Below, piece by piece: positions 1 through 44,390 of a stretch of DNA of 51,594 bases. The stretch lies in the IMG/VR virus record IMGVR_UViG_3300035070_001383, positions 1 to 51,594 of that record; one strand, written 5' to 3'. The notes below the pieces were generated by a model. That model was given only the letters and a program-made list of their open reading frames with translations. It was not told the DNA's origin and searched no databases. How positions within the stretch are numbered: the stretch's first letter is position 1; each line of letters starts with the position of its first letter. Source of the stretch: a virus. A program made the translations under genes and the position numbers.

Positions 1-20
1 TCTGTAAATCTAATCATAGT
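1..20. repeat. Left copy of 20-bp terminal direct repeat
   Basis: The first 20 bases, tctgtaaatctaatcatagt, are identical to the last 20 bases of the window. This is what remains when a circular or terminally redundant genome is cut open by an assembler. Joining the two copies gives a circle of 51,574 bp in which leftward genes run on without a break. Confidence 0.9.
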
Positions 21-21036: not shown

Positions 21037-22725
21037 ATGGCTTCTAAATTTTTGATTGACATTGACCTCAATGGTAATGAGATTCAGAACTTCGGTATTC
21101 AAACTACGGGAACTCTGCCTTCTACTCCATTTAACGGTCAGGTTGTAAACCACAGCGGCGTAATCAAAGTCTACGAGACATCTTCTACATCGTGGAAGTA
21201 TGTAGGTATGGCTGCTGACGGAACAACTATCACTGAGTCTTCAGGCGTTATCTCTGTAGGTGCAATACCTCAGTCTAGCGTTACAGGTCTTGCTACTTCT
21301 TTAGGCGGTAAGGTTGATGACTCTCAAGTATTAACAAACGTACCTTCAGGTGCGGTATTTACCGATACTACCTACACAGCAGGTGACGGTCTAGACCTAT
21401 CATCTACCGAGTTCGCTGTAGACTCTACAGTTGTTCGCACTTCAGGCGCACAGACTATCGGTGGCTCTAAGACATTCTCTAGCGACGTAATCGTTGAGGG
21501 TGACCTTACTGTAAGCGGCGCTGTAATCACTACATTGTCTGAGCAAGTTGAGATTGAGGATAACATCCTTCTACTTAACTCTAACGTAACAGGTACTCCT
21601 ACTGAGGACTCAGGTCTTGAGGTAGAGCGTGGAACAAGTGCAAACGCAAAATTAGTATGGGACGAGTCTGCTGACCGTTGGACATTTACTAACGACGGAA
21701 GTACTTTCTTTAACATTCCTGTATCTAGTGAGTACTCTACTGCTAACGATAACGATTTTGTTGACGGTGCTACATTTAACAGCGCTAACGGTGAGTTAAC
21801 TCTTAGCGTATCTTCACAGTCTGACGTTGTAGTTGACCTAGATGGACGCTACTTAACTTCGTTTACTGAGTCTAACGATTACGGAACTATCGCCGTATCA
21901 GGACAGACTTCTGTTGCTGCTTCAAGCGCAGGAGACACAGTTACCTTCGTAGGAGCGGGTGGTATGACTATCACTACAGGTACTGACGAGGTTACATTTA
22001 CTTCTGCTAACGATAACGACATCGACTACATTAGCGGTGCTTCTTTTGCTAGCGGTACGTTGACATTAACAGGTCAGGGTAACGCGGGTGCTTCTGTATC
22101 TTTAGACGGACGTTACTTACAGTCTTTCACTGAAACTGACCCTGTATTTACTGCTCACGTTGCTAACGGTATTACAGCAACCAAGATTTCAAATTGGGAT
22201 ACTGCTTTCGGTTGGGGCGACCACGGTGTTGAAGGATACCTAACTGCTGTACCTGCTGCGGGTATTGGTGCGGGTACTTACGGTGATGCTGCTGACGGTA
22301 CTAAGATTGATACAATCACAGTTGATGCTCAAGGTCGTGTAACTGCTCTTGCTACAGGCCCTGTAGTTGACAACAACACACAGCGTACTGACGAAGAGAT
22401 TGAAGACGTTGTAGGTGCAATGTTCAGCGGAAACATTGAAAGCGGTCTAAGCGTAGTCTACCAAGACTCTACTGCTGACATCGACGTTGTTACAACTCAC
22501 CACACTTACACTCATAGTGAGGCTAGCTACGCGGGTGGTACACTTAAGATTGGCGGTCACAACTTAGACTTATCAGCGGGTGCTGTAGTTCAGGTTTATG
22601 ACGTATCTTCAAGTAACTACCAACAGGTTGCTACAGACGTTGTATTAGACACGACCAACGTTGAGATTAGTGTAGTTCTACCTGCGGGAGATTGGAAAAT
22701 CATCGCACACGGAACAAGAGCTTAA
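21037..22725 (+). CDS. Long tail fibre protein, version 1
   Basis: A 562-residue fibre-like protein. The start FLIDIDLNGNEIQNFGIQ is a common virion-attachment motif and the body has repeated beta segments (SLDGRYL twice, VTFTSANDNDIDYI). NWDTAFGWGDHG near residue 390 is a word shared with many marine phage fibres. From about residue 250 onward the gene is identical to the C-terminal part of the gene at 31252, while residues 1-249 are its own. It lies at the left edge of the 7.7-kb repeat. Confidence 0.7.
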   Translation: MASKFLIDIDLNGNEIQNFGIQTTGTLPSTPFNGQVVNHSGVIKVYETSSTSWKYVGMAADGTTITESSGVISVGAIPQSSVTGLATSLGGKVDDSQVLTNVPSGAVFTDTTYTAGDGLDLSSTEFAVDSTVVRTSGAQTIGGSKTFSSDVIVEGDLTVSGAVITTLSEQVEIEDNILLLNSNVTGTPTEDSGLEVERGTSANAKLVWDESADRWTFTNDGSTFFNIPVSSEYSTANDNDFVDGATFNSANGELTLSVSSQSDVVVDLDGRYLTSFTESNDYGTIAVSGQTSVAASSAGDTVTFVGAGGMTITTGTDEVTFTSANDNDIDYISGASFASGTLTLTGQGNAGASVSLDGRYLQSFTETDPVFTAHVANGITATKISNWDTAFGWGDHGVEGYLTAVPAAGIGAGTYGDAADGTKIDTITVDAQGRVTALATGPVVDNNTQRTDEEIEDVVGAMFSGNIESGLSVVYQDSTADIDVVTTHHTYTHSEASYAGGTLKIGGHNLDLSAGAVVQVYDVSSSNYQQVATDVVLDTTNVEISVVLPAGDWKIIAHGTRA

Positions 22726-22739
22726 TAATAACTTTATAG

Positions 22740-22770
22740 CGGGGCGGTTAACGCCGCCCTTCTATTTTTT
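22740..22770 (+). terminator. Intrinsic terminator after fibre gene, copy A
   Basis: GGGCGG, six-base loop, CCGCCC, then TTCTATTTTTT. It ends transcripts of the long fibre gene. Confidence 0.75.
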
Positions 22771-22784
22771 AACCACAACAGAAT

Positions 22785-23282
22785 ATGGCTAATAAGGTAA
22801 TAACAGATTTAGAAGTAGACGGAACGGTAACTGCAACAAGCGGTAACTCGACTAATTGGAACACCGCTTACGGGTGGGGCGACCACGCGGGTCTTTACGA
22901 TAACTACAGTTCTTTTAACCTTAAGACCAACGGCACACAGCGTACTACCGTTTCTAGCGGCGGTACAGTTGATATCACAGCAGGAAGTAATGTAAGTGTT
23001 AGTTATAGCGCGGGTGGTGTGGTTACTCTCGCGTCTACTAATACTACGTATTCCGCGGGCACAGGTTTAGATTTGACAGGGACAGTTTTCTCTGTTGAGT
23101 CTGACTTGCGCGATGTATCCTATATAGGAAAGGATAGCAATAACTACATTCAGTTCAATGTAGACGGCAATGGACACACAGATTTCTACACAGCGGGTGC
23201 GTGGGTAGCTAGGCTACAGAGCGACGGTGAGCTTCACGTTAAAGGCGACATCGTAGCATTCTCTGATATCTTTAATCCTTAA
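22785..23282 (+). CDS. Short tail fibre protein, copy A
   Basis: A 165-residue beta-rich fibre protein with NWNTAYGWGDHAGLY near residue 25 and YSAGTGLDLTGTVFSV near 93, both words also present in the long fibre protein, so the two are related. The last 30 residues (WVARLQSDGELHVKGDIVAF) look like a fibre tip or chaperone-joining segment. Duplicated exactly at 32817. Confidence 0.65.
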   Translation: MANKVITDLEVDGTVTATSGNSTNWNTAYGWGDHAGLYDNYSSFNLKTNGTQRTTVSSGGTVDITAGSNVSVSYSAGGVVTLASTNTTYSAGTGLDLTGTVFSVESDLRDVSYIGKDSNNYIQFNVDGNGHTDFYTAGAWVARLQSDGELHVKGDIVAFSDIFNP

Positions 23283-23286
23283 TAGT

Positions 23287-24252
23287 ATGGCCCTACAATC
23301 TAGCGGTCAGATTAAATTCTCTGAAATAAACACAGAGCTTTCTAGAACTTCAACAGACATAATCAGTCTATCAGATGCTTCTACGGGAGTCCTAGGTGCT
23401 ATAAACACCAATAACGCTGTAGCTGACAGACCTGACCAATCTGCGCCTCACGCTATAAGCGAATGGTTTAGCTACAATCACAATGCAGCGGGTGCTTACA
23501 CAAACACGCACTACTACTCTATGACCTACGACGCACTCAGAAGAAGTGCTACTAGTTCTCCGTTCAACCTTAGCGGCTCTCAGGACTTGTCTGTATCTAT
23601 GTGGGTAAAGCAATTAGCTACAACGGCCAACGAGATTATGTGGGACTTCTCGAATACTTCGAGCAACTCATCTAACAGATTCTTTCTGCAATACCACAAG
23701 TCTTTTAACCGATTGATAGTTAAGCACAGGACAAACAGTACGAATTACGACAGACAGTTTTCTTTACACGATAACAACTCTATAACGGGAACAGGCACTA
23801 ACTCAGGCGTAGCTTGGAGCAATACCAATAGAGGAAACACCAACTCAGATGGTTGGACATTACTCACTGTAACTTATGACGCTTCTCAGTCTAATGCTAC
23901 AAACGGTATTAAGTTGTATTGGAACGCTACTGAGGTAACCACACAAGCTGTCGCTAACTCAGGAACAAGAAGTACTATAGCGGTTAACGACTTCACCATA
24001 GGTAACAACAACCACAACGCTACAACTACAGCGGGAGCTATGAACTGTAATGTCGACGAGCTAAAGATATTCGGAAGCGTTTTAAGCGCCTCTAACGTAA
24101 CTTCTCTATACAATGGTGGTGTAGTAGCCAATGCAGCAAATTCGTTCAGCACAGGGCTTCTTACGGAGTACAGCTTCGATAGCAACACTCAGGACAGCGC
24201 AGGGTTATTCCCTACGTCTCAGGTAGACACGGGCGCAAGAACGGCTTACTAA
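23287..24252 (+). CDS. LamG/ConA-like lectin-domain fibre protein, copy A
   Basis: A 321-residue protein. Residues 1-60 (SGQIKFSEINTELSRTSTD, ISLSDAS) form a virion-attachment start common in phage baseplate proteins. Residues about 85-300 are a concanavalin A/LamG-like sheet domain (SVSMWVKQLATTANEIMWDF, GWTLLTVTYD, CNVDELKIFGSVLSASNV), probably binding surface glycans. Stop overlaps the next ATG (TAATG). Duplicated exactly at 33319. Confidence 0.7.
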   Translation: MALQSSGQIKFSEINTELSRTSTDIISLSDASTGVLGAINTNNAVADRPDQSAPHAISEWFSYNHNAAGAYTNTHYYSMTYDALRRSATSSPFNLSGSQDLSVSMWVKQLATTANEIMWDFSNTSSNSSNRFFLQYHKSFNRLIVKHRTNSTNYDRQFSLHDNNSITGTGTNSGVAWSNTNRGNTNSDGWTLLTVTYDASQSNATNGIKLYWNATEVTTQAVANSGTRSTIAVNDFTIGNNNHNATTTAGAMNCNVDELKIFGSVLSASNVTSLYNGGVVANAANSFSTGLLTEYSFDSNTQDSAGLFPTSQVDTGARTAY

Positions 24253-24503
24253 TGAGTCGCGTATTGAGCGTGATTCGCTCAAAGCGTCAGAACGGTAGGA
24301 TTGTCGTTATACCTCATTTATACTTTACCTATCTATTCATAGGTTTAGTTAGCGGTGGTGTTTACTCCATACTAGGTAGGGACGCATTAGTCGCCCTATT
24401 TAGTTGGTATTATATCAACGGTATAGACACATATCTATTGATGCTGTCTATAGTTGAATACGCGCTTAGAGTGATATTGATAAACAAAAAGCACATACGA
24501 TAA
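24252..24503 (+). CDS. Two-span membrane protein, holin-like, copy A
   Basis: An 83-residue protein with a basic N-terminus and two hydrophobic spans (LYFTYLFIGLVSGGVYSIL and YLLMLSIVEYALRVILI) and a basic tail NKKHIR. The shape suits a small holin, but two other holin candidates lie near the amidase, so this may have a different membrane role. Duplicated exactly at 34284. Confidence 0.6.
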   Translation: MSRVLSVIRSKRQNGRIVVIPHLYFTYLFIGLVSGGVYSILGRDALVALFSWYYINGIDTYLLMLSIVEYALRVILINKKHIR

Positions 24504-24505
24504 TT

Positions 24506-24522
24506 TCGTAAATTATAAAAAG
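24506..24522 (+). promoter_or_regulatory. Late promoter-like motif, copy 4
   Basis: Exact TCGTAAATTATAAAAAG two bases after the stop of the membrane protein gene and 23 bases before the next ATG. It would start the portal transcript. Confidence 0.6.
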
Positions 24523-24545
24523 GGCACTTACTTTAAATAACCACT

Positions 24546-24779
24546 ATGAAGTTAACCAAAAAAGAATTAGCTAGTCTCAAGGAGATTGTAGCTGAGATTA
24601 AGAAGATAGAGGGCGTTATCGCCAATCTAGAACTACAGAAATCAAACGCTGTTAATCACTATCGCGCTATGCGTGAGTCAGTTGACGGTTATAAAGAAGT
24701 GTTACAAAAGAAATACGGAGACGTTCAAATCGACGTAGCTACAGGTACTATCAAAAAAGCGAATGAAGAGACTAAATAA
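24546..24779 (+). CDS. Coiled-coil protein, 77 aa, copy A
   Basis: A 77-residue charged helical protein (KKELASLKEIVAEIKKIEGV with heptad-like spacing). It is first behind the late motif, and its end overlaps the start of the 113-aa gene by 17 bases. Function unknown; a scaffold or assembly helper is possible. Confidence 0.6.
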   Translation: MKLTKKELASLKEIVAEIKKIEGVIANLELQKSNAVNHYRAMRESVDGYKEVLQKKYGDVQIDVATGTIKKANEETK

Positions 24780-25104
24780 TCAGGAAGTTAATATAATTTC
24801 TGTTATCAGGACTTATGATATGAGTAGTCAATTTTACGAAGTTGACCTTCTGTCTAGTTCTGATTTTTCTCGCGCCTATACCTTTTCTGTTGGTGTACAT
24901 TTACCTAGCAATTGCAAAGACTTTGCTACGATAATTGTAGATTTAACATCTAATGTTATAGAGTCGGGAGAGTATGTATTTAGCCTTAGAGACGTTAGTT
25001 CAGGCGGGTCTGACACAGTTGTAGAGTTTTTAGCTCTAGTGGAAGATAACGACAGAACGAGTGTTGATACTGCTGATATCTATGGTGATTCAATAATCTT
25101 CTAA
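24763..25104 (+). CDS. Hypothetical beta-rich protein, 113 aa, copy A
   Basis: A 113-residue protein with alternating hydrophobic strands (YEVDLLSSSDFSRAYTFSVG, GEYVFSLRDVSS). A similar beta arrangement is seen in small virion-associated domains. The start lies within the coiled-coil gene. Not recognised. Duplicated at 34795. Confidence 0.6.
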   Translation: MKRLNNQEVNIISVIRTYDMSSQFYEVDLLSSSDFSRAYTFSVGVHLPSNCKDFATIIVDLTSNVIESGEYVFSLRDVSSGGSDTVVEFLALVEDNDRTSVDTADIYGDSIIF

Positions 25105-25114
25105 AAAGAATTAA

Positions 25115-26365
25115 ATGGGTTTATTTGACAGAGTAATTGAGACGTTTGCATCGTACACCAACGTGCAGGCGACAAGCAGTAGCATAGCCTCTAATGAGTT
25201 GGAGAATGCTATTCGCGACCTTAACGGTAAGTATCGTTTAGGGCAAACAAACAAAGGCTCGTACATTAAGTTCGGTGTTCAGGATGACTTTCCTGTTATG
25301 CTAGACAAGATGCTACGTCAGTCTCCTGTTCACGCAGGTATCCTAACCAAGAAGGCCAAGATGGTCGTAGGCACAGACGTCTCTTACGACGACTCATTCC
25401 TACAGACTAAGAAGGCTAAGGCAGAACTTAAGGTGTTTGTACAGAACTGTGCGGGCGCTAACAAGGGTCTATACGACGTGTTAACTCACGCGTCTTTTCA
25501 ATACGAGAAGTCAGGCGCTTACGCTATGTATATCAGATGGAACAAGGAACGTACTAAGATACTAGAACTCAGCTCGCTAGACATTAAGGGTGTACGTGCG
25601 GCAGAACCTAACAACAAGGGTGAGGTAACTAATTACATAGTTCGCCGTATGTTCGGTCAGGGCGCAGACTCTATGCAGCACAATGAGGCTCGCGTTATAC
25701 CCGCGTTCAACAAGTGGGATAAGAAGCAGACTGAAGCTGTATTGTATGTTACTAACCCGTTCTCAGGTAACGAGTTCTACGGTGTGCCTAACTACATTTC
25801 TGCATTCCATTATATCTCGGCTGACTTTGCTTTCGGTAAGCATATTAAGAACAGCGCCGAGAACGGATTTACGCCTAAGGTTATGGCCACGTTCGTTGGA
25901 CGTAATATGAGTCCTGAGCAGAAGCAAAAGGAGTACGAGGCGTTCAAGAACTCATTCACGGGAACTGACGGTGAGCAAGCTATGTTAGCTTGGGTTAAGA
26001 AGCCTGAAGACAAACCCACTATTGAGTCACTAGATATTTCAAACCTAGATAAGACTGTAGATGTTCTTTCTAGACTAAACGATGCTAAAATTCTAACTGC
26101 ACACAATGTTACAAGCCCTACGCTATTTGGTGTTATGGTTAGCGGTAAACTTGGAGGTACGGGTAACGAGCTTATCACTGCTTACCAAATTTTCCGTGCT
26201 ACTGAAACGCTACCTAACAGAGAGATTTTATTTAATGGTGTGCAGCGCCTCCTTGATACAGTCGGTTTGGGTGGAATGTCTCTCGATGTAGTAGAGGAGC
26301 CTATCAACCTAGAGAGTATTAAAGGTGCTAACACAACAGATGTAACCCCTAAAGAAGAGAAGTAA
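25115..26365 (+). CDS. Portal protein, copy A
   Basis: A 416-residue portal-type protein. It contains KMLRQSPVHAGILTKKAKMV near residue 65 and NPFSGNEFYGVPNYISAFHY near 215. SAENGFTP and an acidic helical clip-like region follow, then AHNVTSPTLFGVM with GGTGNELITAYQIF near 330-355, which is the classic pattern of phage portals. It forms the 12-subunit ring through which DNA is packaged. Unusually it lies 17 kb from terL and is present twice. Stop overlaps the next start (TAATG). Confidence 0.85.
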   Translation: MGLFDRVIETFASYTNVQATSSSIASNELENAIRDLNGKYRLGQTNKGSYIKFGVQDDFPVMLDKMLRQSPVHAGILTKKAKMVVGTDVSYDDSFLQTKKAKAELKVFVQNCAGANKGLYDVLTHASFQYEKSGAYAMYIRWNKERTKILELSSLDIKGVRAAEPNNKGEVTNYIVRRMFGQGADSMQHNEARVIPAFNKWDKKQTEAVLYVTNPFSGNEFYGVPNYISAFHYISADFAFGKHIKNSAENGFTPKVMATFVGRNMSPEQKQKEYEAFKNSFTGTDGEQAMLAWVKKPEDKPTIESLDISNLDKTVDVLSRLNDAKILTAHNVTSPTLFGVMVSGKLGGTGNELITAYQIFRATETLPNREILFNGVQRLLDTVGLGGMSLDVVEEPINLESIKGANTTDVTPKEEK

Positions 26366-26892
26366 TGGTAGATATTTTATTCATAGACGACAATTACCTA
26401 TACAAGAACTTCCCTCTTCCTAACAAGATGGACAGAGCTAACGTTTTGTCTATAGTTCAGATTGAACAGTTCACAACAATTCAGGACGTACTAGGCACTT
26501 GCCTGTACGAATACCTAGAGGCGGGTATGCTAGCTCAGAACCTTACAGCTACAGAGCAGGAGCTTATGAAGCTAGTTAAGTATTGTTTAGCTATGCACAC
26601 CGCAAAGGCTGCTATCACGTTCACTAGGACGGCTGCTGCTTCTCACAGTAACACAGACGCACAGAGTCAGAGTCAATACACTCTAGATGCGTTGTCAGAT
26701 TCAATCATATCTAAGGCAGGATACGTTCAGGACAGAATCATTAAGTTTGTAAAAGCTGACGCTGACCTTCTAGCGATTGCTCAGGCAGAAGGGTGTAACA
26801 ATGACTTGTTTAACGATGAGGACTCTGTTGGTTTAGACGGCTCTGTATTCTACCCTAATGGTAGCACAAGTAACTCGGAAACGGATTGCTAG
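26365..26892 (+). CDS. Head-tail adaptor-like protein, copy A
   Basis: A 175-residue mostly helical acidic protein coupled to the portal gene by TAATG. The pattern of a short N-terminal strand, long helices (YCLAMHTAKAAITFTRTAAA) and a flexible acidic tail is that of a head-tail connector, and I recall a similar Bacteroidota phage family (DUF6712-like). The position right after the portal supports this. Confidence 0.6.
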   Translation: MVDILFIDDNYLYKNFPLPNKMDRANVLSIVQIEQFTTIQDVLGTCLYEYLEAGMLAQNLTATEQELMKLVKYCLAMHTAKAAITFTRTAAASHSNTDAQSQSQYTLDALSDSIISKAGYVQDRIIKFVKADADLLAIAQAEGCNNDLFNDEDSVGLDGSVFYPNGSTSNSETDC

Positions 26893-26927
26893 TAAACAAG
26901 TTATAACAACCCTAACACAAACACAAT

Positions 26928-27752
26928 ATGCCTACACAGAACAGTGATAAGATAAATATATCTCACTCTGTTGCTCGCAAGTCAGGTATCTACGGTCTAG
27001 AATGGGACGTAGCTAACGAGGCATTGCAAGTAAAGAGAACTGAGACTAACGGAACGGTAACAGAATATGCTGTACAATCAGCGCCTTCACGCGACGGTGA
27101 GTCGGGCTATTCGCACACAGGTGCATTCGCTGACAAGCCTCTTACAAACGATTACGTTTGGGAAGCGGGTGGTGGTATAAACTACACTCAGGCTGACGTA
27201 GATGCGTCTTCTTACAAAGTTCTTAGTCTTAGTGAGGCTGTTCACTTAGCTGTTGATAACCCATATTGGTCAACACCAACTCCTTCGGGAACAACGGGTA
27301 TAGGATTGTTTCAGGGAGCTAACCTTCCTGAAGGTGTAAGTTCTTTGTTTGACTACACGTTTGACTACGACACTGCATACCCAACCTCTAGCGGAACGGG
27401 TTACGAGGGTTCTACAGGGCGCATAAAGCTCAATGACCTTAACTACGGCGACCAACTACGTGTGCGCTTCGACTTCAATGTAATACCTCAGATTGCTAAT
27501 ACGACTATAGAGCCTGCGCTTTGGTATTCTAACCGTAACGACAGCGATGACATTACATACACGTTCCCTCTGACGACTTCTCCTGTATTCTATGGTCTAG
27601 GTACAGTTGGTAACACATACCTCAACAGGGTAGAGATATCGGCTTGGATTACATCTAACGAAGATGTTAACGCTCTAGCGCTGCCTGCTATCAAAGCAGA
27701 CAACCCCGTGATTATTCAGCCTTTGGGTTTATTAGTAACTATTTTAAGATAA
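26928..27752 (+). CDS. Virion or fibre-associated protein, 274 aa, copy A
   Basis: A 274-residue beta-rich protein (SGIYGLEWDVANEALQVKRT near the start, a jelly-roll-like second half with DYTFDYDTAYPTSS and DQLRVRFDFNVIPQ). It ends four bases before the 900-residue fibre gene, so it is probably a fibre connector or decoration protein. Not assigned to a family. Confidence 0.6.
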   Translation: MPTQNSDKINISHSVARKSGIYGLEWDVANEALQVKRTETNGTVTEYAVQSAPSRDGESGYSHTGAFADKPLTNDYVWEAGGGINYTQADVDASSYKVLSLSEAVHLAVDNPYWSTPTPSGTTGIGLFQGANLPEGVSSLFDYTFDYDTAYPTSSGTGYEGSTGRIKLNDLNYGDQLRVRFDFNVIPQIANTTIEPALWYSNRNDSDDITYTFPLTTSPVFYGLGTVGNTYLNRVEISAWITSNEDVNALALPAIKADNPVIIQPLGLLVTILR

Positions 27753-27756
27753 CAGT

Positions 27757-30459
27757 ATGGCGATTAAAGTAACAAGAAACGATGCGGGAAACTGTATCAC
27801 ATTCGTAGGCTCTACAAACCCTGTATATTGGAACTCTTGTCTAGAGGGAGAAATAAACGAGTCTAACTCGAATAACATAAATGTAGTCAACAAGATTAGA
27901 ACTGTAGAAGAGGGAACTGTAATTTATGAGTTCTTCAATCTTCCTTACACAGACTTTCAGGACAGAGACGGTAATGATTTTGTATCACCGTCTGACTGTG
28001 CCCAATACATAACTGATAACGCAAACGTACTCAGCAACACGGGTACATTCGTGTTTAGTCAGACTGACGTTTTAGACGCTCAGAGAGACGCTACAGACAC
28101 TACGGTTTTGTTTAGCAATGGTGATATATACGCTGTAAACTCTTTACACGCTTCTAGCCAAGCTGACGGAACTATTAAGATATCTACCGTTCGCGGTAGC
28201 AAGGACATCTACACTCATTTAAGATACTACAATGTTAGTGTTTTAGACGGTGTTGTTTCAGGATTTAATACAATTGACGCTGCTGTAGACAGACTTAACG
28301 AAGTGTTGGGCGGAACTACTGTAGGCTCTAACACAGGTAACACTCAGACTACCGTTACCACGACAGACAGCACAGCCACCTTTACCGTGTATGGAGATAG
28401 AATTACTCAGACGGGCTCAGGCTCAACTTTAGGGTACACCTCTACAGCGCAGGCAGGAAACTTTGATACTAGCAATGGACTTTACTCTGACCAAACAATT
28501 AGTGAAAATGGAGAGTATTTTGAGTTCGAGCAAGACGGTGGAGATTGGACTAACTCTAGAGGTGTTTATATAGGTCTGTTTGACGAGACTACTTACGACG
28601 TGGCTGATTTGGACGCTGACGTTGCAGGTAACGAGGTTAAAGGTCTTTTGTACCTTAGACTATACCCTAGTGCATTTACGTTCGCTGACGCGACTAACGG
28701 AGCAGGTAAGATTAATGAGGCAGGATTTTCTAACAGCCCTCAGACTAAAACTAAATTCAGACTAGGCCGTGATAACGACGGTAGAGTGTACATAGCTCAC
28801 GAAACTTCAGCTAATGTGTTTGAGGTTATATGTCGTAGCGAGAATGTAGTATCAGCGGGAACTGAGTTGAGGTTCTTCGGTGTTATGCCTTTGGCCAACG
28901 AGCTGAACGGTGTTCGTAATATGACTGTAAACGAAGCTGTCTTAGGCGCTAGTGCTACTTGGTATTACGTTGAGTCTCCTGACACAGAGTTCTACTACCC
29001 GTTGTTCTCTAACGAGGCAGACGCTATAATGATTGACGAGCTTTACGGAACTGCCGCTTCAGGCGCAGGTGCAGCTCACACTCATACATTTGCTGATGAG
29101 CAGCCTTCTGTTCAGACTTGGTATATGCCTCAGACATATATGTTCCACGCTCAGAGTGCAGCTCCTAGCTCACCTGTTGGGATTGCTTGGAATGAAATAC
29201 AAACAGGAGACGACGCTAACTACATTCCTAGTCAGTTTAGTCAAAGCATAACCGTAGCGGAAGGCGATAACATCAACCTTCAGATTAAGCCTGCGGGAGA
29301 CGCTAACACTTACGCACTTTCTAACATTCCTACAGGACTAGCTTACAATTCTGTATCAGGGTATCTACAGGGTACTGCTCCTGAAGTTACAGGAGACAAC
29401 GTATCTAACCCTAGTGACGAATACGTTATTAGCGTAACAAAGGCTAACGCATACGGAAGTAGTGTAGGTTCTTTGACCCTCACGGTAACTAATGAAGACG
29501 CTCCTGTATCGACTAACACCACATCTTGGACTAAGGCGTTAGATTTTAGCGGTAGCGAATACGCTAAGCACGTTAATAATAGTATGTATTACCAACCTTT
29601 ACAAATGGCGGGACTTGCTAATACAGTTGTTGGACACTCAACACAAGGGTATACATCAAATAATAGTTCCTCAAGACCTTGGGCTACAGTAGTTGTATTT
29701 AAGTCAGATGGTTACAGCGGTAATCAAATGATATGGAATCAAGGCGAAGGTTCTACAAGTGGCGATGACAACATTTTCGTAAATGTAACTGCTAACGGGA
29801 CTGTGAACTTCGGTTGGGGACGTGAAGGTGTAGGATATAATCAATGTCAAATTCTTACAAACATATCCTCTTCTACTTGGTATGCAGTTTATATAGCTCA
29901 CAGTGGAGAAAGATTAGGTGGTGGGAATGCTACTGCATCTAACTTAGCTGATTGTTTTGATATTAGAACAATGAGTAGTGCAGATTCATTTGCTTCATTG
30001 AGTAATAACTTATCAGTTGCGGCTAATTGGGTGGTTACAGGTGTTAGAATGGATAGAACTTTTGCAGGAGACTTTACTGTTGGTGGTAGAGGAACAGGGT
30101 ATAGTTATAGAGGTAAGATTGCTAGTATGATAACTCACTGTTTAAAGGCAGGTGTGACTATGCCTGATGCTACTGAGATTAAATTAATGATTACAGACCC
30201 AATGAAATGGGAAACTGATTACTTAATAGGAAATTCATATAGAAGACCTTATTATGTAAATAGCTCTACTAATTATCAAAAACAGACAAGTTTAGGGTTT
30301 AAGGCTAACCAAATGTGGTTAATGGGTGACGGTACTCCTGACACATTCCCTAACATCAATAACGAGCAGAGACCAAATTGGTTAAATTATACATATTTAG
30401 TTATGACTAGTATGGCTAGTAATGATATTGAAACTGTAAACATAAGCGGATTAACTTAA
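27757..30459 (+). CDS. Large receptor-binding fibre, variant 1 C-terminus
   Basis: A 900-residue protein. Residues 1-583 are identical to those of the protein encoded at 37789; the rest differs. The N-terminal half is beta-rich. A putative Ig-like domain (He_PIG type: ITVAEGDNINLQIKPAGD, YALSNIPTGLAYNSVSGYL) occupies about 500-575. From 584 on comes a lectin-like sheet domain (RPWATVVVF, NFGWGREGVGYN, GVRMDRTFAGDFTVGGRG, MWLMGDGTPDTF). The C-terminal stretch is clearly AT-richer than the rest of the gene, a sign that it came from another lineage. Confidence 0.75.
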   Translation: MAIKVTRNDAGNCITFVGSTNPVYWNSCLEGEINESNSNNINVVNKIRTVEEGTVIYEFFNLPYTDFQDRDGNDFVSPSDCAQYITDNANVLSNTGTFVFSQTDVLDAQRDATDTTVLFSNGDIYAVNSLHASSQADGTIKISTVRGSKDIYTHLRYYNVSVLDGVVSGFNTIDAAVDRLNEVLGGTTVGSNTGNTQTTVTTTDSTATFTVYGDRITQTGSGSTLGYTSTAQAGNFDTSNGLYSDQTISENGEYFEFEQDGGDWTNSRGVYIGLFDETTYDVADLDADVAGNEVKGLLYLRLYPSAFTFADATNGAGKINEAGFSNSPQTKTKFRLGRDNDGRVYIAHETSANVFEVICRSENVVSAGTELRFFGVMPLANELNGVRNMTVNEAVLGASATWYYVESPDTEFYYPLFSNEADAIMIDELYGTAASGAGAAHTHTFADEQPSVQTWYMPQTYMFHAQSAAPSSPVGIAWNEIQTGDDANYIPSQFSQSITVAEGDNINLQIKPAGDANTYALSNIPTGLAYNSVSGYLQGTAPEVTGDNVSNPSDEYVISVTKANAYGSSVGSLTLTVTNEDAPVSTNTTSWTKALDFSGSEYAKHVNNSMYYQPLQMAGLANTVVGHSTQGYTSNNSSSRPWATVVVFKSDGYSGNQMIWNQGEGSTSGDDNIFVNVTANGTVNFGWGREGVGYNQCQILTNISSSTWYAVYIAHSGERLGGGNATASNLADCFDIRTMSSADSFASLSNNLSVAANWVVTGVRMDRTFAGDFTVGGRGTGYSYRGKIASMITHCLKAGVTMPDATEIKLMITDPMKWETDYLIGNSYRRPYYVNSSTNYQKQTSLGFKANQMWLMGDGTPDTFPNINNEQRPNWLNYTYLVMTSMASNDIETVNISGLT

Positions 30460-30467
30460 CAAAAAGT

Positions 30468-30503
30468 GAGGGGGCTATGCCCTCTCTCTTTAACTTTTTA
30501 TTT
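30468..30503 (+). terminator. Terminator after fibre variant 1
   Basis: GAGGG, seven-base loop, CCCTC, followed by TCTCTTTAACTTTTT, eight bases after the fibre stop codon. Confidence 0.65.
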
Positions 30504-30504
30504 G

Positions 30505-30512
30505 TATCTTTG
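30505..30512 (+). promoter_or_regulatory. Candidate host-type -7 box TATCTTTG
   Basis: Matches the Bacteroidota TAnnTTTG box and lies only four bases before the ATG at 30517, so the transcript would be almost leaderless. The -33 box is not clear, and the site overlaps the T-rich end of the terminator. Confidence 0.35.
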
Positions 30513-30516
30513 CAAC

Positions 30517-30888: not shown

Positions 30889-30890
30889 AA

Positions 30891-31205
30891 ATGTCAACCA
30901 ACAGAATATCAGTATCAACTCAGCTTCAAGCGAAAAATAGCGTAACCGTAGTAGAAAGAGGTTCTATTGCGGGCATTGCTGCTGCGTCCGATAAAACAAA
31001 AAACGTTTCCATAAACATAAATGCATGGACTGCTGTCGGTGACGAGCATGAAATATCGTTAGTTCACAACCTAGCTAAGAAGCCTTCAGTAACTGTTGTA
31101 GACTCATTTAACCAAGTATTGTTTCCCGAAGTTGTATACATAGACAACAACACAGTCAAATTGGTGGTTACTGCTCAGTTCTCGGGCACGGCTCACTTCA
31201 ACTAA
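30891..31205 (+). CDS. Fibre-associated protein, second cassette
   Basis: A 104-residue protein, started at the ATG at 30891 since the upstream frame runs inside the previous gene. Its C-terminal half (HEISLVHNLAKKPSVTVVDS, VVYIDNNTVKLVV, QFSGTAHFN) is homologous to the end of the protein at 20590-21018. It precedes long fibre version 2 as its relative precedes version 1. Confidence 0.65.
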   Translation: MSTNRISVSTQLQAKNSVTVVERGSIAGIAAASDKTKNVSININAWTAVGDEHEISLVHNLAKKPSVTVVDSFNQVLFPEVVYIDNNTVKLVVTAQFSGTAHFN

Positions 31206-31212
31206 TTTTACT

Positions 31213-31220
31213 TATCTTTG
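31213..31220 (+). promoter_or_regulatory. Candidate host-type -7 box TATCTTTG
   Basis: Second TAnnTTTG match in the inserted segment, 31 bases before the ATG of long fibre version 2. No clear -33 element is seen. The same eight bases occur before the gene at 30517. Confidence 0.35.
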
Positions 31221-31251
31221 CAGATGTAATTAATTATTAAAACATTTGCAA

Positions 31252-32757: not shown

Positions 32758-32771
32758 TAATAACTTTATAG

Positions 32772-32802
32772 CGGGGCGGTTAACGCCGCCCTTCTATTTT
32801 TT
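32772..32802 (+). terminator. Intrinsic terminator after fibre gene, copy B
   Basis: Same GGGCGG/CCGCCC hairpin with T-run as at 22740. Confidence 0.75.
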
Positions 32803-32816
32803 AACCACAACAGAAT

Positions 32817-33314
32817 ATGGCTAATAAGGTAATAACAGATTTAGAAGTAGACGGAACGGTAACTGCAACAAGCGGTAACTCGACTAATTGGAACACCGCT
32901 TACGGGTGGGGCGACCACGCGGGTCTTTACGATAACTACAGTTCTTTTAACCTTAAGACCAACGGCACACAGCGTACTACCGTTTCTAGCGGCGGTACAG
33001 TTGATATCACAGCAGGAAGTAATGTAAGTGTTAGTTATAGCGCGGGTGGTGTGGTTACTCTCGCGTCTACTAATACTACGTATTCCGCGGGCACAGGTTT
33101 AGATTTGACAGGGACAGTTTTCTCTGTTGAGTCTGACTTGCGCGATGTATCCTATATAGGAAAGGATAGCAATAACTACATTCAGTTCAATGTAGACGGC
33201 AATGGACACACAGATTTCTACACAGCGGGTGCGTGGGTAGCTAGGCTACAGAGCGACGGTGAGCTTCACGTTAAAGGCGACATCGTAGCATTCTCTGATA
33301 TCTTTAATCCTTAA
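32817..33314 (+). CDS. Short tail fibre protein, copy B
   Basis: Identical to the 165-residue protein at 22785. Both copies keep full-length frames and the same flanking terminator, so there is no sign that either is decaying. Confidence 0.65.
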   Translation: MANKVITDLEVDGTVTATSGNSTNWNTAYGWGDHAGLYDNYSSFNLKTNGTQRTTVSSGGTVDITAGSNVSVSYSAGGVVTLASTNTTYSAGTGLDLTGTVFSVESDLRDVSYIGKDSNNYIQFNVDGNGHTDFYTAGAWVARLQSDGELHVKGDIVAFSDIFNP

Positions 33315-33318
33315 TAGT

Positions 33319-34284
33319 ATGGCCCTACAATCTAGCGGTCAGATTAAATTCTCTGAAATAAACACAGAGCTTTCTAGAACTTCAACAGACATAATCAGTC
33401 TATCAGATGCTTCTACGGGAGTCCTAGGTGCTATAAACACCAATAACGCTGTAGCTGACAGACCTGACCAATCTGCGCCTCACGCTATAAGCGAATGGTT
33501 TAGCTACAATCACAATGCAGCGGGTGCTTACACAAACACGCACTACTACTCTATGACCTACGACGCACTCAGAAGAAGTGCTACTAGTTCTCCGTTCAAC
33601 CTTAGCGGCTCTCAGGACTTGTCTGTATCTATGTGGGTAAAGCAATTAGCTACAACGGCCAACGAGATTATGTGGGACTTCTCGAATACTTCGAGCAACT
33701 CATCTAACAGATTCTTTCTGCAATACCACAAGTCTTTTAACCGATTGATAGTTAAGCACAGGACAAACAGTACGAATTACGACAGACAGTTTTCTTTACA
33801 CGATAACAACTCTATAACGGGAACAGGCACTAACTCAGGCGTAGCTTGGAGCAATACCAATAGAGGAAACACCAACTCAGATGGTTGGACATTACTCACT
33901 GTAACTTATGACGCTTCTCAGTCTAATGCTACAAACGGTATTAAGTTGTATTGGAACGCTACTGAGGTAACCACACAAGCTGTCGCTAACTCAGGAACAA
34001 GAAGTACTATAGCGGTTAACGACTTCACCATAGGTAACAACAACCACAACGCTACAACTACAGCGGGAGCTATGAACTGTAATGTCGACGAGCTAAAGAT
34101 ATTCGGAAGCGTTTTAAGCGCCTCTAACGTAACTTCTCTATACAATGGTGGTGTAGTAGCCAATGCAGCAAATTCGTTCAGCACAGGGCTTCTTACGGAG
34201 TACAGCTTCGATAGCAACACTCAGGACAGCGCAGGGTTATTCCCTACGTCTCAGGTAGACACGGGCGCAAGAACGGCTTACTAA
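33319..34284 (+). CDS. LamG/ConA-like lectin-domain fibre protein, copy B
   Basis: Identical to the 321-residue lectin-domain protein at 23287. Expressing both copies would only raise dosage, since the proteins do not differ. Confidence 0.7.
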   Translation: MALQSSGQIKFSEINTELSRTSTDIISLSDASTGVLGAINTNNAVADRPDQSAPHAISEWFSYNHNAAGAYTNTHYYSMTYDALRRSATSSPFNLSGSQDLSVSMWVKQLATTANEIMWDFSNTSSNSSNRFFLQYHKSFNRLIVKHRTNSTNYDRQFSLHDNNSITGTGTNSGVAWSNTNRGNTNSDGWTLLTVTYDASQSNATNGIKLYWNATEVTTQAVANSGTRSTIAVNDFTIGNNNHNATTTAGAMNCNVDELKIFGSVLSASNVTSLYNGGVVANAANSFSTGLLTEYSFDSNTQDSAGLFPTSQVDTGARTAY

Positions 34285-34535
34285 TGAGTCGCGTATTGAG
34301 CGTGATTCGCTCAAAGCGTCAGAACGGTAGGATTGTCGTTATACCTCATTTATACTTTACCTATCTATTCATAGGTTTAGTTAGCGGTGGTGTTTACTCC
34401 ATACTAGGTAGGGACGCATTAGTCGCCCTATTTAGTTGGTATTATATCAACGGTATAGACACATATCTATTGATGCTGTCTATAGTTGAATACGCGCTTA
34501 GAGTGATATTGATAAACAAAAAGCACATACGATAA
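34284..34535 (+). CDS. Two-span membrane protein, holin-like, copy B
   Basis: Identical to the 83-residue protein at 24252. A doubled holin gene would be expected to shift lysis timing if this is indeed a holin, one reason to doubt that the duplication is stable. Confidence 0.6.
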   Translation: MSRVLSVIRSKRQNGRIVVIPHLYFTYLFIGLVSGGVYSILGRDALVALFSWYYINGIDTYLLMLSIVEYALRVILINKKHIR

Positions 34536-34537
34536 TT

Positions 34538-34554
34538 TCGTAAATTATAAAAAG
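34538..34554 (+). promoter_or_regulatory. Late promoter-like motif, copy 5 (in repeat B)
   Basis: Same 17-mer as at 24506, duplicated with the repeat. Confidence 0.6.
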
Positions 34555-34577
34555 GGCACTTACTTTAAATAACCACT

Positions 34578-34811
34578 ATGAAGTTAACCAAAAAAGAATT
34601 AGCTAGTCTCAAGGAGATTGTAGCTGAGATTAAGAAGATAGAGGGCGTTATCGCCAATCTAGAACTACAGAAATCAAACGCTGTTAATCACTATCGCGCT
34701 ATGCGTGAGTCAGTTGACGGTTATAAAGAAGTGTTACAAAAGAAATACGGAGACGTTCAAATCGACGTAGCTACAGGTACTATCAAAAAAGCGAATGAAG
34801 AGACTAAATAA
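34578..34811 (+). CDS. Coiled-coil protein, 77 aa, copy B
   Basis: Identical to the protein at 24546, in the same overlap with the following gene. Confidence 0.6.
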   Translation: MKLTKKELASLKEIVAEIKKIEGVIANLELQKSNAVNHYRAMRESVDGYKEVLQKKYGDVQIDVATGTIKKANEETK

Positions 34812-35136
34812 TCAGGAAGTTAATATAATTTCTGTTATCAGGACTTATGATATGAGTAGTCAATTTTACGAAGTTGACCTTCTGTCTAGTTCTGATTTTT
34901 CTCGCGCCTATACCTTTTCTGTTGGTGTACATTTACCTAGCAATTGCAAAGACTTTGCTACGATAATTGTAGATTTAACATCTAATGTTATAGAGTCGGG
35001 AGAGTATGTATTTAGCCTTAGAGACGTTAGTTCAGGCGGGTCTGACACAGTTGTAGAGTTTTTAGCTCTAGTGGAAGATAACGACAGAACGAGTGTTGAT
35101 ACTGCTGATATCTATGGTGATTCAATAATCTTCTAA
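34795..35136 (+). CDS. Hypothetical beta-rich protein, 113 aa, copy B
   Basis: Identical to the protein at 24763. Confidence 0.6.
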   Translation: MKRLNNQEVNIISVIRTYDMSSQFYEVDLLSSSDFSRAYTFSVGVHLPSNCKDFATIIVDLTSNVIESGEYVFSLRDVSSGGSDTVVEFLALVEDNDRTSVDTADIYGDSIIF

Positions 35137-35146
35137 AAAGAATTAA

Positions 35147-36397
35147 ATGGGTTTATTTGACAGAGTAATTGAGACGTTTGCATCGTACACCAACGTGCAG
35201 GCGACAAGCAGTAGCATAGCCTCTAATGAGTTGGAGAATGCTATTCGCGACCTTAACGGTAAGTATCGTTTAGGGCAAACAAACAAAGGCTCGTACATTA
35301 AGTTCGGTGTTCAGGATGACTTTCCTGTTATGCTAGACAAGATGCTACGTCAGTCTCCTGTTCACGCAGGTATCCTAACCAAGAAGGCCAAGATGGTCGT
35401 AGGCACAGACGTCTCTTACGACGACTCATTCCTACAGACTAAGAAGGCTAAGGCAGAACTTAAGGTGTTTGTACAGAACTGTGCGGGCGCTAACAAGGGT
35501 CTATACGACGTGTTAACTCACGCGTCTTTTCAATACGAGAAGTCAGGCGCTTACGCTATGTATATCAGATGGAACAAGGAACGTACTAAGATACTAGAAC
35601 TCAGCTCGCTAGACATTAAGGGTGTACGTGCGGCAGAACCTAACAACAAGGGTGAGGTAACTAATTACATAGTTCGCCGTATGTTCGGTCAGGGCGCAGA
35701 CTCTATGCAGCACAATGAGGCTCGCGTTATACCCGCGTTCAACAAGTGGGATAAGAAGCAGACTGAAGCTGTATTGTATGTTACTAACCCGTTCTCAGGT
35801 AACGAGTTCTACGGTGTGCCTAACTACATTTCTGCATTCCATTATATCTCGGCTGACTTTGCTTTCGGTAAGCATATTAAGAACAGCGCCGAGAACGGAT
35901 TTACGCCTAAGGTTATGGCCACGTTCGTTGGACGTAATATGAGTCCTGAGCAGAAGCAAAAGGAGTACGAGGCGTTCAAGAACTCATTCACGGGAACTGA
36001 CGGTGAGCAAGCTATGTTAGCTTGGGTTAAGAAGCCTGAAGACAAACCCACTATTGAGTCACTAGATATTTCAAACCTAGATAAGACTGTAGATGTTCTT
36101 TCTAGACTAAACGATGCTAAAATTCTAACTGCACACAATGTTACAAGCCCTACGCTATTTGGTGTTATGGTTAGCGGTAAACTTGGAGGTACGGGTAACG
36201 AGCTTATCACTGCTTACCAAATTTTCCGTGCTACTGAAACGCTACCTAACAGAGAGATTTTATTTAATGGTGTGCAGCGCCTCCTTGATACAGTCGGTTT
36301 GGGTGGAATGTCTCTCGATGTAGTAGAGGAGCCTATCAACCTAGAGAGTATTAAAGGTGCTAACACAACAGATGTAACCCCTAAAGAAGAGAAGTAA
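35147..36397 (+). CDS. Portal protein, copy B
   Basis: Identical to the portal at 25115. A tailed phage needs a single portal gene, and two intact identical copies are exceptional. This is the gene whose duplication most clearly asks for confirmation of the assembly. Confidence 0.8.
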   Translation: MGLFDRVIETFASYTNVQATSSSIASNELENAIRDLNGKYRLGQTNKGSYIKFGVQDDFPVMLDKMLRQSPVHAGILTKKAKMVVGTDVSYDDSFLQTKKAKAELKVFVQNCAGANKGLYDVLTHASFQYEKSGAYAMYIRWNKERTKILELSSLDIKGVRAAEPNNKGEVTNYIVRRMFGQGADSMQHNEARVIPAFNKWDKKQTEAVLYVTNPFSGNEFYGVPNYISAFHYISADFAFGKHIKNSAENGFTPKVMATFVGRNMSPEQKQKEYEAFKNSFTGTDGEQAMLAWVKKPEDKPTIESLDISNLDKTVDVLSRLNDAKILTAHNVTSPTLFGVMVSGKLGGTGNELITAYQIFRATETLPNREILFNGVQRLLDTVGLGGMSLDVVEEPINLESIKGANTTDVTPKEEK

Positions 36398-36924
36398 TGG
36401 TAGATATTTTATTCATAGACGACAATTACCTATACAAGAACTTCCCTCTTCCTAACAAGATGGACAGAGCTAACGTTTTGTCTATAGTTCAGATTGAACA
36501 GTTCACAACAATTCAGGACGTACTAGGCACTTGCCTGTACGAATACCTAGAGGCGGGTATGCTAGCTCAGAACCTTACAGCTACAGAGCAGGAGCTTATG
36601 AAGCTAGTTAAGTATTGTTTAGCTATGCACACCGCAAAGGCTGCTATCACGTTCACTAGGACGGCTGCTGCTTCTCACAGTAACACAGACGCACAGAGTC
36701 AGAGTCAATACACTCTAGATGCGTTGTCAGATTCAATCATATCTAAGGCAGGATACGTTCAGGACAGAATCATTAAGTTTGTAAAAGCTGACGCTGACCT
36801 TCTAGCGATTGCTCAGGCAGAAGGGTGTAACAATGACTTGTTTAACGATGAGGACTCTGTTGGTTTAGACGGCTCTGTATTCTACCCTAATGGTAGCACA
36901 AGTAACTCGGAAACGGATTGCTAG
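36397..36924 (+). CDS. Head-tail adaptor-like protein, copy B
   Basis: Identical to the protein at 26365, again coupled to the portal by TAATG. Confidence 0.6.
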   Translation: MVDILFIDDNYLYKNFPLPNKMDRANVLSIVQIEQFTTIQDVLGTCLYEYLEAGMLAQNLTATEQELMKLVKYCLAMHTAKAAITFTRTAAASHSNTDAQSQSQYTLDALSDSIISKAGYVQDRIIKFVKADADLLAIAQAEGCNNDLFNDEDSVGLDGSVFYPNGSTSNSETDC

Positions 36925-36959
36925 TAAACAAGTTATAACAACCCTAACACAAACACAAT

Positions 36960-37784
36960 ATGCCTACACAGAACAGTGATAAGATAAATATATCTCACTC
37001 TGTTGCTCGCAAGTCAGGTATCTACGGTCTAGAATGGGACGTAGCTAACGAGGCATTGCAAGTAAAGAGAACTGAGACTAACGGAACGGTAACAGAATAT
37101 GCTGTACAATCAGCGCCTTCACGCGACGGTGAGTCGGGCTATTCGCACACAGGTGCATTCGCTGACAAGCCTCTTACAAACGATTACGTTTGGGAAGCGG
37201 GTGGTGGTATAAACTACACTCAGGCTGACGTAGATGCGTCTTCTTACAAAGTTCTTAGTCTTAGTGAGGCTGTTCACTTAGCTGTTGATAACCCATATTG
37301 GTCAACACCAACTCCTTCGGGAACAACGGGTATAGGATTGTTTCAGGGAGCTAACCTTCCTGAAGGTGTAAGTTCTTTGTTTGACTACACGTTTGACTAC
37401 GACACTGCATACCCAACCTCTAGCGGAACGGGTTACGAGGGTTCTACAGGGCGCATAAAGCTCAATGACCTTAACTACGGCGACCAACTACGTGTGCGCT
37501 TCGACTTCAATGTAATACCTCAGATTGCTAATACGACTATAGAGCCTGCGCTTTGGTATTCTAACCGTAACGACAGCGATGACATTACATACACGTTCCC
37601 TCTGACGACTTCTCCTGTATTCTATGGTCTAGGTACAGTTGGTAACACATACCTCAACAGGGTAGAGATATCGGCTTGGATTACATCTAACGAAGATGTT
37701 AACGCTCTAGCGCTGCCTGCTATCAAAGCAGACAACCCCGTGATTATTCAGCCTTTGGGTTTATTAGTAACTATTTTAAGATAA
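36960..37784 (+). CDS. Virion or fibre-associated protein, 274 aa, copy B
   Basis: Identical to the protein at 26928. Confidence 0.6.
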   Translation: MPTQNSDKINISHSVARKSGIYGLEWDVANEALQVKRTETNGTVTEYAVQSAPSRDGESGYSHTGAFADKPLTNDYVWEAGGGINYTQADVDASSYKVLSLSEAVHLAVDNPYWSTPTPSGTTGIGLFQGANLPEGVSSLFDYTFDYDTAYPTSSGTGYEGSTGRIKLNDLNYGDQLRVRFDFNVIPQIANTTIEPALWYSNRNDSDDITYTFPLTTSPVFYGLGTVGNTYLNRVEISAWITSNEDVNALALPAIKADNPVIIQPLGLLVTILR

Positions 37785-37788
37785 CAGT

Positions 37789-40521
37789 ATGGCGATTAAA
37801 GTAACAAGAAACGATGCGGGAAACTGTATCACATTCGTAGGCTCTACAAACCCTGTATATTGGAACTCTTGTCTAGAGGGAGAAATAAACGAGTCTAACT
37901 CGAATAACATAAATGTAGTCAACAAGATTAGAACTGTAGAAGAGGGAACTGTAATTTATGAGTTCTTCAATCTTCCTTACACAGACTTTCAGGACAGAGA
38001 CGGTAATGATTTTGTATCACCGTCTGACTGTGCCCAATACATAACTGATAACGCAAACGTACTCAGCAACACGGGTACATTCGTGTTTAGTCAGACTGAC
38101 GTTTTAGACGCTCAGAGAGACGCTACAGACACTACGGTTTTGTTTAGCAATGGTGATATATACGCTGTAAACTCTTTACACGCTTCTAGCCAAGCTGACG
38201 GAACTATTAAGATATCTACCGTTCGCGGTAGCAAGGACATCTACACTCATTTAAGATACTACAATGTTAGTGTTTTAGACGGTGTTGTTTCAGGATTTAA
38301 TACAATTGACGCTGCTGTAGACAGACTTAACGAAGTGTTGGGCGGAACTACTGTAGGCTCTAACACAGGTAACACTCAGACTACCGTTACCACGACAGAC
38401 AGCACAGCCACCTTTACCGTGTATGGAGATAGAATTACTCAGACGGGCTCAGGCTCAACTTTAGGGTACACCTCTACAGCGCAGGCAGGAAACTTTGATA
38501 CTAGCAATGGACTTTACTCTGACCAAACAATTAGTGAAAATGGAGAGTATTTTGAGTTCGAGCAAGACGGTGGAGATTGGACTAACTCTAGAGGTGTTTA
38601 TATAGGTCTGTTTGACGAGACTACTTACGACGTGGCTGATTTGGACGCTGACGTTGCAGGTAACGAGGTTAAAGGTCTTTTGTACCTTAGACTATACCCT
38701 AGTGCATTTACGTTCGCTGACGCGACTAACGGAGCAGGTAAGATTAATGAGGCAGGATTTTCTAACAGCCCTCAGACTAAAACTAAATTCAGACTAGGCC
38801 GTGATAACGACGGTAGAGTGTACATAGCTCACGAAACTTCAGCTAATGTGTTTGAGGTTATATGTCGTAGCGAGAATGTAGTATCAGCGGGAACTGAGTT
38901 GAGGTTCTTCGGTGTTATGCCTTTGGCCAACGAGCTGAACGGTGTTCGTAATATGACTGTAAACGAAGCTGTCTTAGGCGCTAGTGCTACTTGGTATTAC
39001 GTTGAGTCTCCTGACACAGAGTTCTACTACCCGTTGTTCTCTAACGAGGCAGACGCTATAATGATTGACGAGCTTTACGGAACTGCCGCTTCAGGCGCAG
39101 GTGCAGCTCACACTCATACATTTGCTGATGAGCAGCCTTCTGTTCAGACTTGGTATATGCCTCAGACATATATGTTCCACGCTCAGAGTGCAGCTCCTAG
39201 CTCACCTGTTGGGATTGCTTGGAATGAAATACAAACAGGAGACGACGCTAACTACATTCCTAGTCAGTTTAGTCAAAGCATAACCGTAGCGGAAGGCGAT
39301 AACATCAACCTTCAGATTAAGCCTGCGGGAGACGCTAACACTTACGCACTTTCTAACATTCCTACAGGACTAGCTTACAATTCTGTATCAGGGTATCTAC
39401 AGGGTACTGCTCCTGAAGTTACAGGAGACAACGTATCTAACCCTAGTGACGAATACGTTATTAGCGTAACAAAGGCTAACGCATACGGAAGTAGTGTAGG
39501 TTCTTTGACCCTCACGGTAACTAATGAAGACGCTCCTGCGGCTACAGTACTAACGCCTTGGGTTAAGGCTCTAAAATTCAGCGGTGGTAGTGAGTACGTA
39601 AAGCAAGTTACTCAAAGCACAGCCTCGAACGCACTAAGAATGAATGGTTTATCTCAGTTAGCTTCTGCTAACACTGACTCTTCAAAGACGAGTAGTGACA
39701 CATATTCGCGACCTTGGGCTACTGCTATTGTATTCCAAACCCCTAACAATACCACTAACCAACACATATGGAATAGCGGTGAGGGTGCAGCCACAGGAGA
39801 TGACAATATCTATTTACGTATGACAGGTGCGAACGGAGAATTATACTTCGGTTGGGGACGTGACGGCGTAGGGTACAATGAATACCACCTAGGCAACTAC
39901 GGTGGTTCATATAATCAGTCAACAGGTCAATGGTGGGGTATTTACATATCACACGACGGTACTCGTTTGAACTCGGCTGACGCTACTGCTGCTAACCTAG
40001 TTAACGCTTTTGATATTAGATTAATGGGAACTAACGATTCTGTTCCTGTATTTAGCAATCTGTATGATGTAGGTAGCAATGTTAACAATTGGGTTTCCAC
40101 AGGCGTTAGAATGGACAGAACTATAGGGGGAGACTTTACTATCGGTGGACGTGGTTCAAATAGAAGCTTCCACGGTAGAGTTGCTAGTATGGTTGTAACC
40201 ACACTACTCAGGGGTGTAACAAAGCCTACTGACGCTGAGATTAAACTTATGCTTACAGACCCTATTAAGTGGGAAGATGACTATAAAGACGGTCAAAGTG
40301 CTCGATATGGTTCGAGTGGGTCTAACTTCACGTATGGCCCTTCAAACAGTAATAGCAAGTATGCTACTCAGATTTGGCTAATGGGAGACGGTACTAGTGA
40401 CTCTTTTGCTAACGGCATTAGAAATCACGTTGACACTACTGACCAAAACTATGTTAAGCTACAGCTTAATAGTATGCAGGCTAATGATTTCGAAACAGTA
40501 AATATATCAGGATTGAGTTAA
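37789..40521 (+). CDS. Large receptor-binding fibre, variant 2 C-terminus
   Basis: A 910-residue protein sharing residues 1-583 with the protein at 27757, then carrying a homologous but different lectin-like C-terminus (SRPWATAIVF, YFGWGRDGVGYN, GVRMDRTIGGDFTIGGRG, IWLMGDGTSDSF, FETVNISGLS). Base composition of this end resembles the rest of the phage. It is therefore probably the resident version, followed as expected by the lysis genes. The two variants presumably recognise different receptors or receptor states. Confidence 0.75.
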   Translation: MAIKVTRNDAGNCITFVGSTNPVYWNSCLEGEINESNSNNINVVNKIRTVEEGTVIYEFFNLPYTDFQDRDGNDFVSPSDCAQYITDNANVLSNTGTFVFSQTDVLDAQRDATDTTVLFSNGDIYAVNSLHASSQADGTIKISTVRGSKDIYTHLRYYNVSVLDGVVSGFNTIDAAVDRLNEVLGGTTVGSNTGNTQTTVTTTDSTATFTVYGDRITQTGSGSTLGYTSTAQAGNFDTSNGLYSDQTISENGEYFEFEQDGGDWTNSRGVYIGLFDETTYDVADLDADVAGNEVKGLLYLRLYPSAFTFADATNGAGKINEAGFSNSPQTKTKFRLGRDNDGRVYIAHETSANVFEVICRSENVVSAGTELRFFGVMPLANELNGVRNMTVNEAVLGASATWYYVESPDTEFYYPLFSNEADAIMIDELYGTAASGAGAAHTHTFADEQPSVQTWYMPQTYMFHAQSAAPSSPVGIAWNEIQTGDDANYIPSQFSQSITVAEGDNINLQIKPAGDANTYALSNIPTGLAYNSVSGYLQGTAPEVTGDNVSNPSDEYVISVTKANAYGSSVGSLTLTVTNEDAPAATVLTPWVKALKFSGGSEYVKQVTQSTASNALRMNGLSQLASANTDSSKTSSDTYSRPWATAIVFQTPNNTTNQHIWNSGEGAATGDDNIYLRMTGANGELYFGWGRDGVGYNEYHLGNYGGSYNQSTGQWWGIYISHDGTRLNSADATAANLVNAFDIRLMGTNDSVPVFSNLYDVGSNVNNWVSTGVRMDRTIGGDFTIGGRGSNRSFHGRVASMVVTTLLRGVTKPTDAEIKLMLTDPIKWEDDYKDGQSARYGSSGSNFTYGPSNSNSKYATQIWLMGDGTSDSFANGIRNHVDTTDQNYVKLQLNSMQANDFETVNISGLS

Positions 40522-40556
40522 TAATTTAAAGGTTAGGTAGGGCGGGAGTAAAGATT

Positions 40557-40730: not shown

Positions 40731-40745
40731 GGCAGGTTGAATTTA

Positions 40746-40790: not shown

Positions 40791-40794
40791 ATAC

Positions 40795-41801: not shown

Positions 41802-41802
41802 A

Positions 41803-44004: not shown

Positions 44005-44026
44005 ACTATAATCTTTTGGTTAATAA

Positions 44027-44388: not shown

Positions 44389-44390
44389 AA

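Follow-up and report, generated by a model that had tools for sequence, protein, structure and literature searches.

The 51,594-nucleotide marine phage record IMGVR_UViG_3300035070_001383 (hereafter the window, meaning the whole stretch analysed) contains one long block twice, and comparison with related contigs suggests, with a probability of roughly 0.7, that the doubling was made during metagenome assembly. The block, designated R, is an exact direct repeat in which positions 21785-29506 recur at 31817-39538 with an offset of 10,032. The preliminary description had seen no difference between the copies in any translated frame, and the alignment agrees, with all 7,722 of 7,722 bases identical (100%). 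Mismatches flank the repeat on both sides, and the record can be written as X-R-M-R-Y, where M is a 2.3-kb spacer. It is the sole direct repeat of at least 31 bp in the whole window, in which no inverted repeat of at least 31 bp was found. Because the longest exact repeat inside 15 related contigs does not exceed 31 bp, overlaps of contig ends excepted, a repeat of 7,722 bp lies far above chance. Each copy makes up 15% of the contig.

The features discussed here are listed in the table, in which ORF900 is our name for a protein of 900-910 amino acids. R doubles eight complete genes (22785 to 27752), as the preliminary description had counted. It also repeats a fibre gene in its 3' part and ORF900 over its first 583 codons. 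The duplicated portal that it reported is supported by a clear family match. The 175-aa gene that it called an adaptor gave weak matches to a family of unknown function (phrog_35048) and to DUF6712 (24.5 bits; cut-off 25), so that the name is at most tentative. Its possible holin inside R matched no family, whereas a recognisable holin (phrog_3427) lies outside R at 40795-41205 in a single copy. By its sequence the record can be read as circular, and a relative (L006) reads through the end junction with the 20 bp counted once. The overlap of the two ends may reflect a short assembly overlap, which would ease bridging at matches of 30 bp.

Table. Features of the window used in the analysis.
Feature	Position	Strand	Remarks
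Terminase large subunit	7071..8321	+	PHROG 2, E 2.4e-47; single copy; lineage-A marker
Fibre gene, A-type N-terminus	21037..22725	+	contains start of R
R copy 1	21785..29506	+	fibre 3' part; 165-aa, 321-aa, 83-aa, 77-aa and 113-aa genes; portal; 175-aa gene; 274-aa gene; ORF900 first 583 codons
Portal, copy 1	25115..26365	+	PHROG 11226, E 4.6e-24; copy 2 at 35147-36397
ORF900 copy 1	27757..30459	+	M version of variable C-terminal part
Spacer M	29507..31816	+	lineage-B type; ORF900 variable C-terminal part, phrog_1084 gene (30517-30888), small gene (30894-31205), fibre N-terminal part
Fibre gene, hybrid	31246..32757	+	B-type N-terminus and A-type C-terminus
R copy 2	31817..39538	+	identical to copy 1
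ORF900 copy 2	37789..40521	+	910 aa; Y version of variable C-terminal part
Exonuclease VIII-like gene	48889-49680		family match (phrog_412); near Erf-like gene
Erf-like ssDNA annealing protein	49954..50496	-	family match (phrog_155)
20-bp end repeat	1..20 and 51575-51594	.	overlap of the circular record's two ends

Without one unit (X-R-Y) the window is, judged by its relatives, an unremarkable phage genome of about 41.5 kb from a lineage that we call A and with which it agrees in terminase, capsid, portal and gene order. Counting the 20-bp end overlap once, the collapsed genome measures 41,542 bp and is complete compared with L006, in line with the normal gene set at about 41.5 kb that had been anticipated. 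The extra unit makes the genome 24% oversize, and no compensating deletion was found relative to the relatives. A portal was found in 23 of 50 terminase relatives, in exactly one copy each; the remainder, many of which are fragments, gave no portal match. No second or decaying portal was present in any of the 23. Paralogy between two diverged portals was therefore rejected, since the copies are identical and the relatives have one. Two relatives whose ends overlap, G025 and G054, are 39.6 kb and 43.2 kb long, lengths that fit 41.5 kb and not 51.6 kb and thus favour a single-copy genome.

Two relatives illustrate the single-copy state most directly. L006/G002 (IMGVR_UViG_3300021389_000055; 39,764 bp) has the X-R-Y gene order of the window, its R genes being ordered as in R copy 1, and a portal 95% identical to that of the window, but it carries a single R and no M, and its ORF900 leads directly to the lysis genes. 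In the A relatives, it is the Y version of the ORF900 C-terminal part that precedes these genes. L026 (IMGVR 3300034407_001400) is 99.7% identical to window positions 31894-51594 without indels (99.5% over 31894-39538), and its R likewise runs straight to the lysis genes with no M. Of the 67 differences that separate L026 from the window, 27 fall in one patch of the ORF900 trunk (38400-38560, equal to 28368-28528). In sequence this patch looks like a local allele exchange; an import from the other phage type described below was unsupported, because neither allele is clearly nearer to it. The window (51575-51594) and L026 are two different contigs with an identical last base, which lies just 5' of the start codon of a sigma-factor-like gene (50875-51591). 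Among named phages there was no DNA match to the window, and its portal is only 23% identical to those of the Nonlabens phages P12024S/L. Terminase alignment revealed no relative among GTDB genomes.

M is, on gene content and sequence similarity, a segment native to a different phage type, which we call lineage B. The phrog_1084-type protein of M is 98% identical to its counterparts in L010 and L011 and 91% identical to that in L012, and L010 is collinear with window positions 30421-32096 at 86.6% DNA identity. Six contigs (L148, L149, L152, L157, L158 and L159) natively carry the B portal, a 274-aa gene, ORF900, the phrog_1084 gene, the small gene and the fibre gene in this order. The long B contigs (61-63 kb), such as IMGVR_UViG_3300025849_000037 and 3300032087_001789, share with M the succession from ORF900 through the phrog_1084 gene and the small gene to the fibre N-terminus. 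Unlike the window, they have their own terminase (phrog_6681) and portal (phrog_6547). The A and B terminases and portals belong to different families, those of the window match PHROGs other than those of lineage B, and only M is of B type. The A-type portal was not found in the B contigs, whereas the same query matched 23 A-type contigs. We also considered M as a variant of lineage A, but this was unsupported; only 2 of 50 A-type contigs have a homologue of the gene at 30517, and these are distant (37-39% identical). B contigs align to residues 1-311 of the fibre encoded at 31246..32757 (85-86% identity) and leave the rest unmatched.

A- and B-type contigs co-occur in samples 3300025849, 3300024255 and 3300048113. 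Several replication and lysis genes are up to about 90% identical at the protein level between lineage B (G008-G010) and the window (40795-50496). Another contig, G046 (IMGVR_UViG_3300022921_000024, also L136-L138; 53,339 bp), has lineage-B structural genes (phrog_13704 and phrog_14478) in its left 27 kb and lineage-A replication, terminase and portal genes in its right part, joined near 27-29 kb. From its gene content it appears to be another A/B hybrid, natural or chimeric.

Both edges of R lie inside receptor-recognition genes common to A and B. The left edge is inside the fibre gene, at a motif shared by the two lineages. L010 matches exactly for 30 bp from 21784 in the X copy and for 29 bp from 31817 in the M copy, and the start of the 30-bp match is no more than 1 bp from the edge. 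A 26-mer taken from two bases inside R matched L010 alone in the viral_contigs collection, which may lack records closely similar to the window. In identity to the window over the initial 200 bases of R, L010 and L011 (about 81-90%) exceed the A-type L006 (about 76-79%). The fibre flanks of X and M are 80% identical in the last 30 bp ahead of R. The right edge falls at ORF900 codon 583/584, which is the boundary between the conserved trunk and the variable part in many contigs. In phages of several types (L150, L152-L155, L157-L159 and L161-L165), the first ~585 residues of ORF900 are conserved and the C-terminal part is highly variable; the latter is likely a receptor-binding exchange module, as judged from this pattern. 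After R, M and Y show patches of homology, and no exact match of at least 26 bp reaches the right edge in the B contigs compared. The longest exact A-B matches in these contigs are 30-38 bp near the left edge, while those in the ORF900 trunk reach 55 bp. The one same-sample pair of A and B contigs compared shared no exact match of 24 bp.

The lineages differ by a rotation of the module order: in A the fibre gene comes first, followed by the portal and then ORF900, whereas in B ORF900 is followed by the M genes and the fibre gene. With this rotation, bridging at both shared places duplicates R, whether an assembler or recombination does it. The position of the edges, in receptor-recognition sequence common to A and B, would explain the location of the duplication under either reading. 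Neither this position nor the foreign character of the spacer had been noted in the preliminary description. L026 begins only after the first 77 bp of R, and the contig of L010 stops in the same fibre zone, at the equivalent of about 32096, which indicates that other assemblies break there too.

Under the assembly reading, two kinds of DNA were probably present in the sample: a lineage-A phage (a circle X-R-Y of about 41.5 kb) and DNA with a host-recognition block of lineage-B type. A and B would be nearly alike in two stretches: one, at the right edge of R, is where the ORF900 trunk ends, and the other, at the left edge, is the fibre motif. If the assembly graph was bridged at both, a loop R-M-R with a single entry from X and a single exit to Y would result, and a path walking this loop once would write R twice, with perfectly identical copies. 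Path expansion of a collapsed repeat yields copies free of mismatch. It was observed directly that the repeat is exact, that the relatives have one copy, that M is of B type, that A and B share sequence around the edges and that their module order is opposite; we infer that the bridging occurred in the assembler and not in the cell.

The preliminary description had left a choice between a very recent, selected duplication and a double traversal by the assembler. The evidence favours the latter, because the relatives are single-copy, the collapsed genome has a normal length of 41.5 kb, and the 24% excess is not offset by a deletion. The perfect identity over 7.7 kb points the same way, as do the absence from all relatives of a further portal, intact or decayed, and the lack of an independent R-M or M-R junction. 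Neither junction was found in the other contigs fetched, a collection that is not exhaustive and may leave out records very near the window. The authors of CheckV treated as assembler products, and discarded, 6,543 contigs with terminal repeats in which a duplicated region took up 20% or more of the contig (PMC8116208). These resemble the window as metagenomic viral contigs with a large exact repeat, matching ends and excess length. However, they are mostly copies of whole genomes, whereas the window repeats a 7.7-kb part, with a spacer characteristic of a different phage type between the copies. A general literature search on duplicated viral contigs returned nothing relevant.

Some considerations count against an assembly origin. 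A mixture in the graph would be expected to branch into the rest of B, discouraging a double walk of R. For most assemblers, it is unusual to walk a 7.7-kb edge twice. In addition, the known A-B exact matches given above are below the usual final k-mers; the true donor of M would therefore have to match A better than the B contigs compared.

The main alternative, which we consider unlikely, is a true tandem made in the cell, in which a B fragment (ORF900 - M - fibre) recombined on its left with one A genome and on its right with another A copy or a concatemer. The rotated module order would necessarily give X-R-M-R-Y in this case as well, and, as a recombination-made tandem would require, the novel joints show homology, with A-B homologous sequence at both edges. 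The Erf-like and exonuclease VIII-like genes of the window, identified by family matches, could support such recombination in vivo. The similarity of the replication and lysis genes indicates DNA exchange between A and B, and M is intact with its genes open. In phage T4 under toxIN, segmental amplification produced tandem direct repeats through recombination at short homologies, an origin possible in the window too, and deletions followed (PMC9391042). However, T4 amplified a small counter-defence locus and deleted sequence elsewhere, whereas the window adds 10 kb with a foreign spacer and shows no deletion. The absence of any mismatch across 7.7 kb and the single intact portal of the relatives also speak against a true tandem, as does the M fibre, whose anchor end typifies another virion. 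Overall, it is rather improbable that the window represents a real 51.6-kb hybrid phage with a B-type receptor-recognition block captured between two copies of the A module. A simple tandem duplication within one lineage was rejected, because M and Y differ from the first base after R and M is of B type.

Far less probable still is that R and M formed a separate 10,032-bp circle or concatemer, a defective by-product merged by the assembler with a dominant X-R-Y phage: such a pair would give the same assembly graph as X-R-M-R-Y, and excision between two R copies would yield exactly this circle, but R and M together lack a terminase, a major capsid gene and a replication gene, so that persistence is hardly possible, and the circle itself presupposes an earlier recombination between A and B.

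The doubled block is probably spurious as a genome feature, and the record is unfit for use as given where its length, its number of portal copies or its gene count is concerned. If the hybrid were real, each genome would carry two variants of ORF900 and two of the fibre, the extra set could be shed by recombination between the copies, and the record would represent a natural intermediate in the exchange of host-range modules between unrelated virion types. What is real and useful is the existence of two marine phage types that have receptor-recognition genes in common, arranged in rotated order and with closely similar stretches. Assemblies break or become joined at these stretches, which could also allow recombination to swap host range.
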